Position numbers and translations under genes: made by a program. Positions 1 through 9,500 of a stretch of 45,334 bases of DNA are shown one piece after another. The notes under the pieces were generated by a model. It saw nothing but the letters and a program-made list of their open reading frames with translations, had not been told where the DNA came from and did no database searches. Source of the stretch: Candidatus Obscuribacterales bacterium (GTDB taxonomy: Bacteria; Cyanobacteriota; Vampirovibrionia; Obscuribacterales; Obscuribacteraceae); NCBI GenBank assembly GCA_020050685.1, contig JAGVKG010000066.1, positions 1-45,334 of the forward strand, read 5' to 3'. Numbering within the stretch: position 1 is the stretch's first letter; every line of letters starts with the position of its first letter.

Positions 1-227
1 GCGGGCGCTTGGATGGTTTTTGGGAAACCAAACTTGCACCGTGGGATTTAGCGGCGGGCACTCTCATTGTCACCGAAGCTGGTGGCATGGTGACAAATTT
101 GTCTGGTGGTAAATTTGATATTAATAGCGGTTATGTGCTGGCGACTAACGGTTTGATTCACAGACAAACAATTGATTGTTTGTCGAAGGTCAAAGAAAAA
201 CTTCAGGGAGCGGGGATACAAGCGTGA
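1..227 (+). CDS. Inositol monophosphatase family protein, C-terminal part
   Basis: This is the 3' end of a gene whose start lies left of the window; the reading frame is open from base 3. The visible residues GRLDGFWE followed by WDLAAG and then EAGG are the C-terminal signature of the inositol monophosphatase/SuhB family, in which the Asp of WDxAAG binds catalytic Mg2+. The family hydrolyses inositol phosphates or related sugar phosphates in the cytoplasm; the exact substrate cannot be told. The stop codon overlaps the GTG start of the GH57 gene by four bases (GTGA), so the two are probably translated from one mRNA. Confidence 0.85.
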   Translation, partial: GRLDGFWETKLAPWDLAAGTLIVTEAGGMVTNLSGGKFDINSGYVLATNGLIHRQTIDCLSKVKEKLQGAGIQA

Positions 228-1909
228 CAGAAAAACTTTCCGTTTGCTTCATTTGGCATATGCATCAGCCACTCTACAAGGACAGATTGAGTGGGCAATA
301 TTTGATGCCTTGGGTGCGTTTGCACGCGATCAAAGATTATTTGGACATGGCTTTGATTCTCAAGGACTATCCGCGAGTCAAACAGACTTTCAATTTAGTT
401 CCTTCGCTAATGGAACAACTGAACGACTATGGCTGGCACAATGCTGTCGATGATCAATTGAAGTGGACTTGCAAGCACGCCTCCGAATACACGCAGCAAG
501 ACAAGATTGGCATTCTGGCTTCTTCTTTCCATAGCAATTTAGAGCGGCAGATTAAGCCGAACAAGCCGTATTATGAACTGTGGGCAAAACGCCAACATCT
601 TTTAGATCGCGGGCACCATGCGGCATCCATGGTCAAGGAATTTTCCGACCAAGAATATGCGGACATGTGCACATGGATGAACCTGGCATGGTTTGATCCC
701 ATGTGGTATGAAAAAATGGACGAGCTGAAAAGCTATCTCACGCAAGGGCGCGAATTTCATTACGACAAGCGTAATCGCTTAATTGAGATTCAGCGTGAAA
801 TCATTCGCCAAATAATTCCCTCCTACCGCGCTTTGCAAGATGAAGGGCAAATCGAGATCATCACAAGCCCCTACTATCATCCAATCTTGCCTCTCTTAAT
901 TGACACCAATTCGGCAAAAATTTCCGATCCAAACGTGCGCTTGCCAGAGCGAATTTATTTCCACCGCCAAGACGCGCTTGCTCAATTGGAAAAAGGCATT
1001 GCCTATTATGAGGAAATGTTTGGTCGGCGGCCGCAAGGCATGTGGCCATCTGAACTTTCTGTCAGTCCGGCCGCGCTTGAATTGATTTCTCAAGTTGGCA
1101 TTAATTGGGTTGTGCTTGATGAAGCACTGCTGAGCAAAACCATTCATGCGCCAATTTTTAGAGACGATCACGGCAACCTCAACAGTCCCGAGTTTATCTG
1201 CCAGCCTTATCGCTTGCAGGCCGGTGATTACAATATCAACTTGCTCTTCCGCGAAGTTGTCACCTCAAACGAAATCGGATTTTCATTTGGCGGGCGTTCA
1301 CCGCAAGAAGCAGCAACCGCGCTTTGCATGCGTCTCAAATACATCCAACAGAAATTATTCAATTGGGAAAGAGAAGGCATGGTAGTTATTGCCTTGGATG
1401 GAGAAAACTGCTGGGAAACTTATGAGAATGATGGCAGGCCATTTTTGCAGGAGCTCTATCATCGTCTCTCGGAAGATTCTTCCTTCAACGTTTGCACAGT
1501 TTCCGATTATCTCAAGCGCAATCCGTCGTCTGCCGAAATGCACAACATTCACAGCGGCTCTTGGATCAATTCCGACTTTCACATCTGGATCGGCGACCCA
1601 GTAAAAAACAAAGCTTGGGACTTGCTCTCTCGCACTCGTCACTTCTTGGCCGCGGCATTCCGCCACGGCACCCATCCACCGGAAGATCTGCACCGCGCCT
1701 GGGAAGAAATTTACACCGCTGAAGGATCCGATTGGTTCTGGTGGTTTGGCGAACCAAACAATTCGCATGATGATGCCATATTTGATCACCAATTCCGCCT
1801 GCGCCTGCAAAACGTTTACACCTTGCTTGGCCAGCCATATCCGAAGGATTTGGACTTTCCTATGGATCAGCATGCTTATGAAAGAGAAAAGATCCCCGAG
1901 CTATTGTAA
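224..1909 (+). CDS. GH57 family glycoside hydrolase (alpha-glucan active)
   Basis: The 561-residue protein has the hallmarks of glycoside hydrolase family 57, retaining enzymes acting on alpha-glucans (amylase, amylopullulanase or 4-alpha-glucanotransferase types). HMHQP (residues 12-16) is motif 1. SPYYHPILPLL (215-225) is typical of the amylopullulanase-like branch. The probable nucleophile is Glu277 in WPSE, and the probable acid/base is Asp392 in LDGENCWE. There is no signal peptide, so it should act on cytoplasmic glycogen-like polymer. I chose GTG at 224 because it overlaps the preceding stop as GTGA and has a purine-rich GGAGCGGGGA upstream; an in-frame ATG-less extension to 176 is less likely. 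The last 31 codons are duplicated at 2735-2830. The precise reaction is not determinable. Confidence 0.9.
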   Translation: MTEKLSVCFIWHMHQPLYKDRLSGQYLMPWVRLHAIKDYLDMALILKDYPRVKQTFNLVPSLMEQLNDYGWHNAVDDQLKWTCKHASEYTQQDKIGILASSFHSNLERQIKPNKPYYELWAKRQHLLDRGHHAASMVKEFSDQEYADMCTWMNLAWFDPMWYEKMDELKSYLTQGREFHYDKRNRLIEIQREIIRQIIPSYRALQDEGQIEIITSPYYHPILPLLIDTNSAKISDPNVRLPERIYFHRQDALAQLEKGIAYYEEMFGRRPQGMWPSELSVSPAALELISQVGINWVVLDEALLSKTIHAPIFRDDHGNLNSPEFICQPYRLQAGDYNINLLFREVVTSNEIGFSFGGRSPQEAATALCMRLKYIQQKLFNWEREGMVVIALDGENCWETYENDGRPFLQELYHRLSEDSSFNVCTVSDYLKRNPSSAEMHNIHSGSWINSDFHIWIGDPVKNKAWDLLSRTRHFLAAAFRHGTHPPEDLHRAWEEIYTAEGSDWFWWFGEPNNSHDDAIFDHQFRLRLQNVYTLLGQPYPKDLDFPMDQHAYEREKIPELL

Positions 1910-1965
1910 ACGCTCATCTCGCTTCAAGTTCTGCTTTTGACTTCAGAGATGACTTAGATTGGCTA

Positions 1966-1993
1966 TTGACACATTATATCAATTTGATATAAT
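1966..1993 (+). promoter_or_regulatory. higBA promoter with palindromic operator
   Basis: TTGACA (1966-1971) and TATAAT (1988-1993) are both perfect consensus boxes with a 16-bp spacer. An inverted repeat with 10-bp arms (ATTATATCAA and its complement) and one central base spans 1973-1993 and contains the -10 box. A repressor bound there would block RNA polymerase, as expected for HigA or HigBA autoregulation. The promoter lies 32 bp before the higB start. Confidence 0.8.
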
Positions 1994-2024
1994 GCATAGG
2001 TGTCAGTATCTTGGAGTCTGATTT

Positions 2025-2306
2025 ATGCAAATCGTCAGACAGGAAGCTATTGACGCCTTCACAAACAGACATACAGACTCTCACAAACCATTTCAAAGGT
2101 GGATACAGATAGTCCAGCTAGCTGAGTGGAAAAACATTCTTGATGTGCAGTCCGTGTTCCAGACTGCTGAGGATGTAAAAGGAAAAGTTGTCTTCAATAT
2201 CAAAGGCAACCATTATCGCTTGATCACGGCAATTGATTATCGTGCACAACAAGTTTTTATTCTAGATGTATTAACGCACGCTCAATATGATAGGTGGACA
2301 CCATGA
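2025..2306 (+). CDS. higB: HigB-type toxin (RelE-superfamily mRNA interferase)
   Basis: The 93-residue protein matches the HigB toxin family in length and sequence: a central W-x-x-x-x-D-V segment, then VFNIKGNHYRLI and a final THAQYDRW, the typical HigB ending. The family cleaves mRNA on ribosomes. A GGAG ribosome-binding site lies 8 bases before the ATG. The stop overlaps the antitoxin ATG by four bases (ATGA), the toxin-first order characteristic of higBA. It has its own consensus promoter. The cassette sits between the GH57 gene and a diverged duplicate of the GH57 tail, which suggests it arrived by insertion. Confidence 0.9.
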   Translation: MQIVRQEAIDAFTNRHTDSHKPFQRWIQIVQLAEWKNILDVQSVFQTAEDVKGKVVFNIKGNHYRLITAIDYRAQQVFILDVLTHAQYDRWTP

Positions 2307-2725
2307 GTACAGCACTCAAATTTGATCGCGACTATATGAATCTGATTGTTAGGTTTCCTCTTGTGCCGATTCGCTCTAAGGAACAAAGCAAAAAGGCCTC
2401 AAGCCTAGTGCGTGAATTAGCAAGTCGCTTGACCGAACTTACTCCGGGTGAACGGGATTATCTTAACGTCCTGGGCAACTTATTGGCAGAGTATGAAAAG
2501 AAGACTTGTAAATTATTGGTAGAACGCATGTCACCATCTGAAGCCCTGGCATATTTACTGGAACAGTCCGGGCGAAGCCAGTCTGATATTGTACGAGCCA
2601 CCGGCATAAAACAGCCCAATCTTTCAGCTTACTTATCCGGCACTCGCTTGGTCTCTAGAGATGCTGCCGTCAAATTAGGAAAATACTTCAAGGTTTCAGT
2701 TGAGCTGTTCTTGCCTAGATCATAA
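2303..2725 (+). CDS. higA: HigA-type antitoxin with XRE helix-turn-helix
   Basis: The 140-residue protein has a Cro/C1-type helix-turn-helix in its C-terminal half (about residues 82-137), with QSDIVRATGIKQPNLSAYLSG as the recognition region. The N-terminal part resembles the long HigA antitoxins. It should neutralise HigB by binding and repress the operon at the palindrome overlapping the -10 box. I place the start at ATG 2303, which overlaps the higB stop and has AGGTGG five bases upstream; a GTG at 2294 would add three residues and sits inside that ribosome-binding site. The stop codon is directly followed by the duplicated GH57 tail. Confidence 0.88.
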   Translation: MSTALKFDRDYMNLIVRFPLVPIRSKEQSKKASSLVRELASRLTELTPGERDYLNVLGNLLAEYEKKTCKLLVERMSPSEALAYLLEQSGRSQSDIVRATGIKQPNLSAYLSGTRLVSRDAAVKLGKYFKVSVELFLPRS

Positions 2726-2726
2726 A

Positions 2727-2830
2727 CAAAAATGGTTTACACCTTGCTTAGCCAGCCCTATCCAAAAGATCTGTACTATCCCCTCGATCAACACGCTTAC
2801 GAAAGAGAACGGATCCCAGAACTTTTGTAA
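2727..2830 (+). pseudogene. Remnant/duplicate of GH57 3' end
   Basis: Bases 2735-2830 align without gaps to 1814-1909, the last 31 codons plus stop of the GH57 gene. I count 78 of 96 identical bases and 26 of 31 identical residues. Eleven of the 18 differences are at third codon positions, and both copies end in PELL-stop. This copy was therefore under coding selection while it diverged and is not a decayed local duplicate. It has no ribosome-binding site or remaining gene body and should be non-functional. It marks the right boundary of the higBA insertion. Confidence 0.85.
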
Positions 2831-2858
2831 GCGTTGTTCCTAGGCATTAGCAGCTGGA

Positions 2859-4166
2859 TCATTTTGCCTGAAGCTCGTGGATTCTCCTCCGGCATTCTTG
2901 GGCAGCAAATTTGCGGTTCTGTTTATCAAAGAGCTCGGCAGCAGTTTGCAAATCTCTAATTGCTAACTGCGGGTTGCCAAGCCTCACACGTATACCGGAT
3001 CTTTCCATATAGAGACCAGCATCATTCGGATGCTCAGCCAACCACTTGCTTAGAGAAACATCAGCACCTGCCAAATCTCCCATCTGTTCACTAAGCCTGG
3101 CATAATTCAGTGGGGTATCCATATTTTTAAGCTGAAGAATGTGGCGCAGATCTTCTCTTGCTCCCTGCCAGTCACCAATCTTTTGCCTGAGCTTGGCGCT
3201 TTCCTGATAACAATCCCGATTGTCCGGTCTTAAAGACAAACATTTTTTCAAATCATCAAGCGCACCATTCAGTTCACCAGATTTGATTTTGGTCTTGGCT
3301 CGCCAATAGTAGGCAAAGTAATCGTCCGGGGACAGCTGTATAGCCATGTCACAATTTTGGAGGGCTCTTTGGTAATCGGAGTTGCAATAATAAATGTAGG
3401 CACTAACCGCAACTGGTGCAGACCATTTTGGACTTAACCTCTGAGTTTCCTGCATAGCCTCAATTGCCTTAACACGTTCATCTAGCACCAAAAGGACCAC
3501 CCCACTAAAGAATTTGATAGGAGAATAGACAAAAGCTAATTTCTGCTTGATTTGAACCTGTTCCAAAGTGCTTTTCAGTGGCGGGGTCAAGTAAATAAGG
3601 ATCCCGCAAATCAAAAGTACAAATGCGATACGCTGTCGCAATTTATTTTCCGTCGTTATACACAAAGATGCATCACGGTCCCAACTCGTACCTTTATTCT
3701 TGTAATATTTTATTAGTTGTATAAAGAGAGCGATATCCTGTATGTACATAATCCCCAGCGCATAAGCCCTCAACCAAATTCGGAAACACCTGATGCAAGC
3801 ACCTGAAAAACTGAGTATAGTGCCATCATCCCGGCGTACAGAGATAGCTAACAACCACTTTCCTGGAGTCCAGCCAAGCCTCGAGAGCAACAATGCCTCC
3901 AGAGCAATCCAGACAATGGGCCAAACTACCAAATCAAGAACACTGTGAGTGATCAGCAGCCAAATGGCAGGGGAACAAAATTCGCCGGCTGTTCTCGAAC
4001 TCAAAAACGAAATCAGGAGATCATATTTGGCACAGACAGCCCAAATCACCACTGCCCCTTGAGCCCAGCCATAGAGGCACATATCCATACTTCGAGCAGC
4101 AGCACGCACCCATGCACTCGGTAAATCACGGGACAAAGTGGCCACCTGATTAGCGTTGTGCAACAT
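2859..4166 (-). CDS. RDD-domain membrane protein with C-terminal TPR repeats
   Basis: The 435-residue protein begins with an RDD-type membrane domain: RAAARSMD at residues 21-28, then SRLGWTPGKWLLAISVRRDDG at 95-115. There are about four to five hydrophobic segments, the last at about 180-195. Residues 250-435 are a run of tetratricopeptide-like repeats (for example YWRAKTKIKSGELNGALDDL), which usually mediate protein binding. RDD proteins are poorly understood membrane proteins. The gene is last in a three-gene operon; only six bases separate it from the preceding stop, and its AAAGGTGA ribosome-binding site overlaps that stop. The partner is unknown. Confidence 0.75.
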   Translation of the reverse strand: MLHNANQVATLSRDLPSAWVRAAARSMDMCLYGWAQGAVVIWAVCAKYDLLISFLSSRTAGEFCSPAIWLLITHSVLDLVVWPIVWIALEALLLSRLGWTPGKWLLAISVRRDDGTILSFSGACIRCFRIWLRAYALGIMYIQDIALFIQLIKYYKNKGTSWDRDASLCITTENKLRQRIAFVLLICGILIYLTPPLKSTLEQVQIKQKLAFVYSPIKFFSGVVLLVLDERVKAIEAMQETQRLSPKWSAPVAVSAYIYYCNSDYQRALQNCDMAIQLSPDDYFAYYWRAKTKIKSGELNGALDDLKKCLSLRPDNRDCYQESAKLRQKIGDWQGAREDLRHILQLKNMDTPLNYARLSEQMGDLAGADVSLSKWLAEHPNDAGLYMERSGIRVRLGNPQLAIRDLQTAAELFDKQNRKFAAQECRRRIHELQAK

Positions 4167-6587: not shown

Positions 6588-9500
6588 CTATTCGCCCTGA
6601 GCGGCAAGCTGTTGTCTTTCGCCTTCTTGCAAAGCATTCACATAATACTGAGCAATAGCTGAACTATCACGAGTACCGAGGATTGGAATTGTCGCTGCTG
6701 CCTGAGCCGCAGTTTCCCAGTTTCTGGTTACAGCATGAGCGTTGGCCGGGAACTTACTTTCAAAGGCACTGAATCCAGATCCAACCTTACTGCCTATCCA
6801 CGAGGACCCAGGAACAAATTTGGATACTGTACTACCTGCCTTACCAATTCCCGATGCAACTCCTTCGTACATGTTACCAAGCCCGGGAGCCATTTTGCCT
6901 ATTCTGGCTCCAAGAACTGTACCTACGACAGTATCAACTGCAGCACCACTAGCCAATTCACCAGCGGTATACTTATGTCCATCTAACGGACTAACTGAGC
7001 CGAAAGCGAAGTCACCTACTGCACGTGGAACATTGTACGATGCCGATGCAGCCAAGTATGGAACGCTATCAACCACAAATTGTTTGTAAAATGGAATAGC
7101 TACAGCAGCCGGATTCTTAGCCATTTCTGCAGTCAGCCAGCGCGCACCCACGGTCTGCATTGGTGTTTTCGCCAAGCCGTAAGCACCAAATGGTATGGCG
7201 TTGATTGGCGCTAACCAAAGATTATCGTTCTCGCCACTGTGCGTGGCGGTATTGAACACATATTTAGTGCCTAGGGATGCAAGTGCACTTACTCCTGCTG
7301 CCAGCAAACAGGTTCCAGCAATAGGCAGGGCAACTGCAGCATCCATGCCACCTGTTGCAGGAATAGATGCCAATGCTCCACCGGCGATAAGCATGAAAGT
7401 GTTCGAGCCTACCACACCAGTAAGAACATTGCCGCCCAGTTGGAGACCAGTGTCGCTAACTAAGTGCAAAGCGTCTTTTTGACCGGCTGGCATTGTTTTG
7501 AACAAAGCATCCTGGACTGCTTTAGCGTTATTGATATTCGCTTGTTTCAAGTCTTCATCGGATACTGTTTGACCTTTTGCGTTCCTTTGATCTAATAATG
7601 CCAAAGTTGTGCCTTTCATTGCTTCCGGATATTTGCTTGAAATTTCCTTGAGCACATCCTGTGAAGCTTTAAAGTCACCAGCTTTATTTAGAGAGCGCGC
7701 ATAATCAGTACGAACTGCAATTGCTGGATCGGAGGCAATTGTAGCTGCAATGTCGTTCTTGAGCATGATTTGTTTCTGTTGCTCACTTACCACGTGACCT
7801 TGCTCTTTTAGCTTCACGCATCTCTCGTCAAGATCTTTTTTCGCTTGAGCAATCCCGGTCTCAACCGAGGTACCTTTTACCGTGCCAACTGATTCTAGTG
7901 CAGCCTTGTAGAACGGTTTCGCTACTTCTATACCGAAGTTAGGATCATCGCTAAAACTGCTAGCTTTCGCAACAAGATTCACAGCCAATGCTGCACGCGA
8001 GACGCCGAGCGAGTCAGACATTTCCAGGAAAGACTTTTGTTTCTTTTCTGCATCTCCTACTTTGGAAACCAATTCCGGATTGCAAATTGCCGCCGCCAAG
8101 ATTTTCTGTTGAGCTAGAGTCTTATCATTTGGATCTTTCGATTGAGCTAACGCATATCCGTAAGCCATATGTGCTTCACCGAGCGCTTTGTCCGTCTGAC
8201 TCCACACCTTGTTGCTCAACTCAGAATATTGTTTTCTGACAGGCTCAATTTCTTTCTCAGTAAAATTCTTGAGCGACTCCATTTTTTCATTCTTGTTTTT
8301 CGTTGCGGATTTCAGCTCAGCCTCGGCCTTTGCAAGCTCAGATGCTTTATCTTGTTTGTCGTTCCAAGTCTTGTGGAAAAAGTCACCGACTTGCTCTACG
8401 ATATTTTCCTTCTCGATATTCTTTTTTACTTGCTCAACTTTGGCTTGCTGTTCTCTTTCCTTGGTAGAGAATTCTTGAATCTCTTTCGCATAGGCAGCAG
8501 CGGTTGTAGTCTTTGTCTTCAGAGTTTCTTCCAACTCTTTGAGTCTTGCTCTTGGTGCTTCCACAGAAGCTCCAGCATCGTCAACTGCTTTGCCAAAGTT
8601 AAGACGCGCAGTATCAGTCAACTCGCCTTTCTGCATCCACTCAGTCACGGCAGCTTTCAGGTGAGCATTGATTTCAGAAGGGGCCGACGTTGTCGCTGCT
8701 TGACCTTTCAATTCTTGCAACTTGTTAGCTTCAATATGCATTAGATTTGCAAAGGCATTAACCTGCGCAGTCTCTCTCTTTTTAGTATCTGCACCGATCG
8801 CTTCTTTTGTAGCTTTCTCGCTAATTTGTTGCTTCTTTCCGGCCAGGTCAAGCAAAACATCCGTATCGAATAAGTCTTTCGCTTCTGGAAATTGCTTATT
8901 AACATCGGCAAGTACTGCCTTTGCTTCATCATGCTTGCCGGCATTATTCAAAACGGTAGCATAAATCACTCTACTTACAACCGGTGCCAGAGGTATCGAA
9001 GCAGCAACCAGAGCACCAGCCAGTGCTTCTTTCTCACTTAACTTTTTGCCTGTCCGCGGATCAACAGCTTTGTCCACGGAAGATCCAAGTGTTGCCAACT
9101 TTTCGCGAATTTTTGCACCATCAAGCGGTCCGGAAAGTTTTACAGCCTCTTCCAGTTTTGGCAATGCAGCCGCATCACCTGATTTAGCTCTGACTTCCTC
9201 TGCTTCCACCATAGTCGTGATAGCCTTCATGTCTTGTTCAACTTTCTTTTGGATGGCTTCGACAGAAGTTTGCTTCTCATCGCTTGTAGCTTTTTGTTTG
9301 TCGCTTACAGCTTGCTGCTTGTCGCTTGACGCTTGTTGCTTATCGCCGACTACTTGTGACTTCTCAACAGATCCTTTGTGAGCCTGGTTTGAAACAGCGG
9401 CCTCAGAAGATGGTTTTGAATGTTTAGCTTGCACATTATGATTGGCTTCCATGGACTTCAATCCAGGGATGACCAAATGTTGACCTGTCATTATCTTGTT

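Follow-up and report, generated by a model that had tools for sequence, protein, structure and literature searches.

By what route do chromosomal toxin-antitoxin (TA) pairs, which lack transfer genes of their own, pass from one genome to another? The matter is largely open, and one locus in a 4.2-Mb metagenome-assembled genome of the Obscuribacterales/Melainabacteria (70 contigs, 98.7% complete, 3% estimated contamination) raises it in a compact form. In the window, that is, the whole stretch of 45,334 nucleotides analysed (contig C45), a predicted higBA pair lies behind a GH57 glycosyl hydrolase gene, and a direct repeat of 99 bp derived from the 3' end of that gene stands on both sides of the pair (Table 1). 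Diverged tails of this kind beside a TA pair would be a datable footprint, as they mark foreign flanking DNA of a related species, the survival of the target and the sites of the junctions. Why should a TA pair stand between two copies of the end of a sugar-enzyme gene, and where did the second copy come from?

Table 1. Features of the GH57-higBA locus and of the hydrolase case on contig C53; positions are those of the window unless another contig is named.
Feature	Position	Strand	Basis or remark
GH57 glycosyl hydrolase gene (target)	224..1909	+	Intact, ends in tail copy 1; PF03065 E 8.7e-66
Tail copy 1, functional GH57 3' end plus 3 bp	1814..1912	+	Tail alignment
15-bp identical block GTTTACACCTTGCTT, copy 1	1814..1828	+	Longest exact word common to the tails
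Promoter TTGACA-N16-TATAAT (12/12)	1966..1993	+	Perfect sigma-70-type match
10-bp inverted repeat ATTATATCAA-T-TTGATATAAT	1973-1993		Overlaps promoter; read from sequence
higB toxin, 93 aa, RelE-like mRNA interferase family	2025..2306	+	PF09907 E 1.6e-26
higA-type HTH antitoxin, 140 aa	2303..2725	+	HTH_3 E 1.3e-6, above cut-off
Tail copy 2, second GH57 3' end, without upstream gene body	2735..2833	+	Tail alignment; dS 1.29, dN 0.086 against copy 1
15-bp identical block, copy 2	2735..2749	+	Same word as in copy 1
Convergent neighbour, RDD and TPR membrane protein	2859..4166	-	PF06271 and TPR
Alpha/beta-hydrolase gene, contig C53	15277-16137	minus	Last 54 bp duplicated
Hydrolase second tail, contig C53	13424-13477		Beyond hipBA pair; 54-bp repeat

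The final 96 bases of GH57 (1814-1909) are found again directly after higA (2735-2830), as an earlier note on this DNA had described. The two stretches align without gaps, with 78 of 96 nucleotides and 26 of 31 residues identical (27 of 32 with the stop), and the mismatches are distributed 5/2/11 over the three codon positions. A local alignment (BLAST) extends 3 bases beyond the stop codon, to 1814-1912 and 2735-2833 (81% identity, E 4e-22). The 15-bp block GTTTACACCTTGCTT forms the exact 5' edge of the homology, and similarity ends upstream of it; under uniform mismatches, 15 identical bp at this edge have a probability of 0.033. Throughout the 4.2 Mb of this genome, the GH57 tail matches only the two copies. 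The pair scores 94 bits, far beyond chance when set against a comparable search of 1.36 Mb, which returned 16 pairs in direct and 2 in inverted (control) orientation. An in-frame ATG stands just upstream of copy 2, at 2732, and is probably incidental; no ribosome-binding site is seen for it, and for that reason a 33-aa small protein starting there was considered unlikely.

The pair between the tails has the layout of chromosomal higBA loci, including those behind the PD-Lambda-2 models: a HigB_toxin gene (PF09907) followed by an HTH antitoxin gene, overlapping and read from a single promoter. In the window the overlap is 4 bp, and the inverted repeat across the promoter is probably the HigA operator. 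Where the locus differs is in the flanking tail duplication, which is absent from TA family definitions. HigB is further supported by PDB HigB chains (E 4e-5) and by the PADLOC model PD-Lambda-2_A (E 9e-23). For the antitoxin, PD-Lambda-2_B matches with E 7e-9, while the HigA model TIGR02607 remains below its cut-off (E 2.5e-4, 20.8 of 47.7 bits); judged by these profiles, the protein is HigA-like rather than the named equivalog. That the two proteins act as toxin and antitoxin is a prediction from their families. An origin of this HigA in a phage or plasmid was considered and rejected, given that no relatives occur in viral contigs or phages and that plasmid matches stay below 40% identity.

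Was the tail simply duplicated in place? Slippage or unequal crossing-over, with the TA pair later inserted between the two copies and the spare one drifting neutrally, would be the simplest origin for a short direct repeat. The differences between the tails speak against this, with 12 synonymous and 6 non-synonymous changes (dN/dS ratio 0.07). When a neutral in-place copy was simulated, about 0.1% of runs ended without a stop and with no more than 5 amino-acid changes, so neutral drift of copy 2 is rejected (P ~0.001; 0.024 for the hydrolase tail discussed below). Insertion exactly between the copies would moreover require a second event. For GH57, the synonymous excess, as read from the codons, effectively refutes duplication in place, which we regard as most improbable. 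Since drift so rarely reproduces the pattern, the tails diverged while they belonged to functional genes, each in a different lineage. This had been proposed from the predominance of synonymous differences, and the dS/dN estimates, the simulation and a calibration on congeneric species all support it. In that calibration, the proportion of synonymous differences between the tails (pS 0.62) was compared with congeneric pairs from G021, G073 and G031, which give 0.38 and 0.72-0.74; in other genera of the family, silent sites are saturated and the last GH57 residues are unrelated. Because the tails fall within the congeneric range and other genera are saturated, both most likely come from this genus but from different species.

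Had the whole GH57 gene been duplicated in tandem long ago, with the second copy lost but for its last 96 bp and higBA in its place, this would likewise account for divergence of both tails under purifying selection. Relatives within the family and order, however, have GH57 orthologues (58-71% identical) that are always single. No tandem or second close orthologue was found in these relatives, and none of 86 loci has a tail copy downstream of GH57. The earlier note had named two arrangements that would point to such a history, namely relatives with both tails but without higBA and a full second GH57 gene; neither was found among the relatives. In addition, no remnant of a second GH57 gene is present beyond the tail, the deletion would have had to end exactly behind higA, and the hydrolase/hipBA and mazF-like cases described below would be left unexplained. 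We consider this history very unlikely.

The slot behind GH57 is variable among relatives. Three loci from other genera (L032, L033 and L037) have one tail and no insert; the gap between GH57 and the convergent gene is 4 bp in L032, and the two genes overlap in L033 and L037. In two other genera the slot is occupied by unrelated pairs, RelE (PF06296) and HTH in L036, and HTH and nucleotidyltransferase in L039. In L150, a congener of L039, a 65-bp scar (7615-7680) keeps the promoter region of the L039 pair (at 7692-8654). On these comparisons, the GH57 slot both gains and loses TA or TA-like pairs. The convergent neighbour in the window, for which no orthologue was found in the family (best other match 26% identity), is a further lineage-specific gene in this slot.

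Which of the two tails is native? Copy 2 is likely to be the displaced resident tail, a polarity that we infer from its position and from its residues. A gap of 28 bp separates its stop from that of the convergent gene, a spacing that recalls the tight junctions of the uninserted relatives, and G>S and D>Y replacements occur in it at positions that are mostly conserved in relatives.

Two tails from different species could also have been brought together by assembly or binning of two strains into one chimeric genome, an explanation for which the 70 contigs and the 3% estimated contamination leave some room. Against it, the longest exact word of the tails (15 bp) is too short for jumps at usual assembly k-mers, the reading frames, promoter and spacing are all intact, and comparable structures occur at two other loci on other contigs. 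A chimera is thus scarcely credible here.

The comparable structures emerged from a scan of 1.36 Mb (32%) of this genome for short direct repeats 0.3-4 kb apart, with pairs inside two genes excluded. Three of the 16 direct pairs are duplications of protein-gene 3' ends, between 54 and 99 bp in length, and they enclose higBA (behind GH57), hipBA (contig C53) and a TA-like pair (contig C13). The C53 case is located in a control region, picked regardless of TA genes, and its hipBA pair is well identified (HipA_C E 9e-53; HipB TIGR03070 E 6e-19). The two hydrolase tails have 9 differences before the stop codon, and only two codons change the residue (E>D and L>M; neutral P 0.024). From the second tail to the stop of the convergent gene there are 24 bp. 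On C13, in the region 118500-120200, the duplicated tail belongs to a mazF-like gene (PemK E 4e-18), and its second copy follows two small genes that overlap, resemble a TA pair and reach no profile cut-off; the second tail contains a premature stop and lacks the purifying signature. Neither the hydrolase nor the mazF-like case has an identical edge block, and no core is common to the three targets. The suggestion that the mode might recur is borne out to this extent, with two more duplicated gene tails, one pair of them enclosing a TA and the other a TA-like pair, and the pattern is thereby open to systematic search. Taken together, these arrangements suggest that tail duplication is a recurrent route for the spread of TA pairs. 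No flanking duplication is present at seven other HigB loci in this genome, so tail duplication would not be the sole route.

A further unit was observed at G000:C13:52041-54468 (L318), where an AAA_14/DUF4143 ATPase gene and a 119-aa gene lie between near-identical direct repeats of 190-223 bp. This unit looks like a recently moved cassette.

What mechanism would leave one whole gene, a TA pair and a spare tail? We give a probability of roughly 0.55 to the reading that higBA entered from a congeneric species on a fragment with the donor GH57 3' end, through one-sided homologous recombination. The fragment would have carried the donor GH57 3' end and then higBA. Its left end would have recombined somewhere within the GH57 gene body, and its right end would have been attached, with no long homology, immediately ahead of the final ~96 bp of the resident gene. 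This would yield an intact hybrid GH57 with copy 1 as its end, then higBA, and then copy 2, stranded beside its native convergent neighbour. With the target gene kept whole, the insertion would be nearly neutral, and addiction to the TA pair would aid retention of the insert. The donor identity, the native tail, the direction, the junctions, the recombination steps and the addiction are all parts of this reconstruction from the present arrangement.

The results thus support the proposal of the earlier note that a piece carrying higBA entered at the 3' end of GH57 and left the gene intact. Its further idea, homologous recombination in the tail itself, is not established: identity between the tails runs for 15 bp at most, a short stretch for such an exchange and one that makes it unlikely. 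The exchange may have taken place by recombination in the longer gene body, or through an integrase that was lost or acted in trans. Gene-body recombination is favoured because no mobile tyrosine recombinase was found in the genome, and because the three targets are unrelated, without a common core and with duplications ranging from 54 to 99 bp. The lack of a shared core, together with tyrosine recombinases that are XerC/XerD-like only, argues against one or several site-specific systems. Three observations count against entry by gene-body recombination: the 15-bp edge identity, which resembles a site-specific core; the tRNA-Leu arrays described below, which are integrase-type target duplications around TA pairs within the family; and the C13 case, with its premature stop, its missing purifying signature and a cargo unconfirmed by profiles.

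Alternatively, the locus may be what is left of a site-specific element, either decayed or mobilised in trans (CIME-like, att-TA-att), that integrated at the 15-bp core. A GH57 tail in attP would have restored the gene, as e14 does in icd, and all but the TA pair would since have been lost, or the pair would have been moved by functions encoded elsewhere. This is the main rival, although we think it rather unlikely. The 15 identical bp mark the very 5' edge of the repeat, as would be expected; tail-restoring integration is known from e14 and icd (PMC6379469), and decayed att-flanked elements are known as CIMEs (PMC5704250). Relatives encode 3-15 tyrosine recombinases, and integrase-less tRNA-Leu units of 0.7-1 kb with HepT/MNT and HigBA exist in the family. 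Yet the only tyrosine recombinases in this genome, which is 98.7% complete, are XerC/XerD-like; beside them there is a resolvase fragment, and no integrase lies within the higBA unit, in agreement with what had been claimed from the window. No remnant of an element is present besides the TA pair, none of the 86 GH57 loci has a tail copy downstream, and the hydrolase and mazF-like cases, lacking edge block and common core, would call for several lost integrases.

Insertion of restriction-modification (RM) systems with long target duplication was reportedly described by Nobusato et al. in 2000 and by Furuta et al. in 2010. RM systems insert with long and variable target duplications, on the order of 100 bp, according to statements in three sources that concern RM systems and not TA pairs (the review PMC3874152; PMC1643837, with an example; PMC3031569). 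As far as those statements go, the likeness is close: an addiction-type pair, no integrase or IS, and target-derived direct repeats of ~100 bp. Here, by contrast, a TA pair (higBA, hipBA) is carried, gene 3' ends form the repeats, and the copies are as diverged as congeneric species, so that one of them would be foreign. With a TA pair as its cargo, the window insertion is an RM-like variant and not a strict member of the long-target-duplication class. The e14 prophage, inserted in icd of E. coli K-12, provides the gene with a new tail and leaves a 163-bp icd' stranded beyond the insert (PMC6379469). The insertion into a gene 3' end, with a new tail supplied and the old one stranded, is the same in both; e14, however, is a site-specific prophage, whereas the unit in the window is ~0.9 kb long and without a recombinase. 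CIMEs, presented in PMC5704250 as att-flanked ICE/IME remnants (cis-mobilizable elements) that sometimes lie in tandem behind a gene end, are likewise integrase-less units between two target-derived repeats. They differ from the present case, in which no remnant accompanies the TA pair, no integrase-bearing relative occurs at the site and the other targets share no core.

What is new here is the combination of TA cargo, gene-end target and foreign tail; insertion with long target duplication is itself known for RM systems, and the tail pattern extends to TA pairs a mode hitherto described for those systems. It is tempting, though tentative, to suppose that TA pairs in this lineage spread between species as minimal mobile units, which land at protein-gene 3' ends and keep the gene whole by an imported tail with no dedicated recombinase, and that a tail-TA-tail unit could excise and re-enter via its repeats. 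In that case natural recombination would carry TA pairs as self-sufficient passengers.

How often do short direct repeats flank HigB genes elsewhere? Among 88 HigB loci surveyed in the class, four have such repeats across the TA pair, namely the window, L194, L198 and L203. At 1160 control positions no short repeats of that kind were found, only long paralogous segments, at a 60-bit threshold that missed the hipBA case (56 bits) inside a control region. The repeat at L198 (54 bp) is a copy of a dispersed 36-54 bp repeat (TATATAGACGGTCAAGRGGNTCAAAAAGTTCA...) that flanks many different TA or TA-like pairs (L198, L281, L288, L289, L273, L275, L277, L278, L282 and L285, in G031, G073, G021 and the window's own genome). 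It stands on both sides in direct orientation in four cases, and also adjoins some non-TA genes. The dispersed repeat is absent from the window and was rejected as a flank of its higBA pair. An integron attC cassette was rejected as well, since the copies fold differently, no hairpin is conserved and the genome has no integron integrase.

At L194 (1319-2967, G024:C70), a HigBA unit of ~1.6 kb lies between a complete tRNA-Arg(CCT) gene and an orphan copy of that gene's 5' half, with 93% identity over 43 bp. At L203 (3787-6438, G024:C5), integrase-less units of 0.7-1 kb are arrayed in tandem behind tRNA-Leu(CAA), each bounded by copies of the tRNA 3' half; they carry HepT/nucleotidyltransferase, a 160-aa gene and HigBA. 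Such arrangements show that this family does have target duplications of the site-specific type around TA pairs. L222 (2320-3677, G002:C19), where such units likewise stand behind tRNA-Leu(CAA), comes from a species of the same genus as L203; the HepT unit is common to both loci and the HigB beyond it differs.
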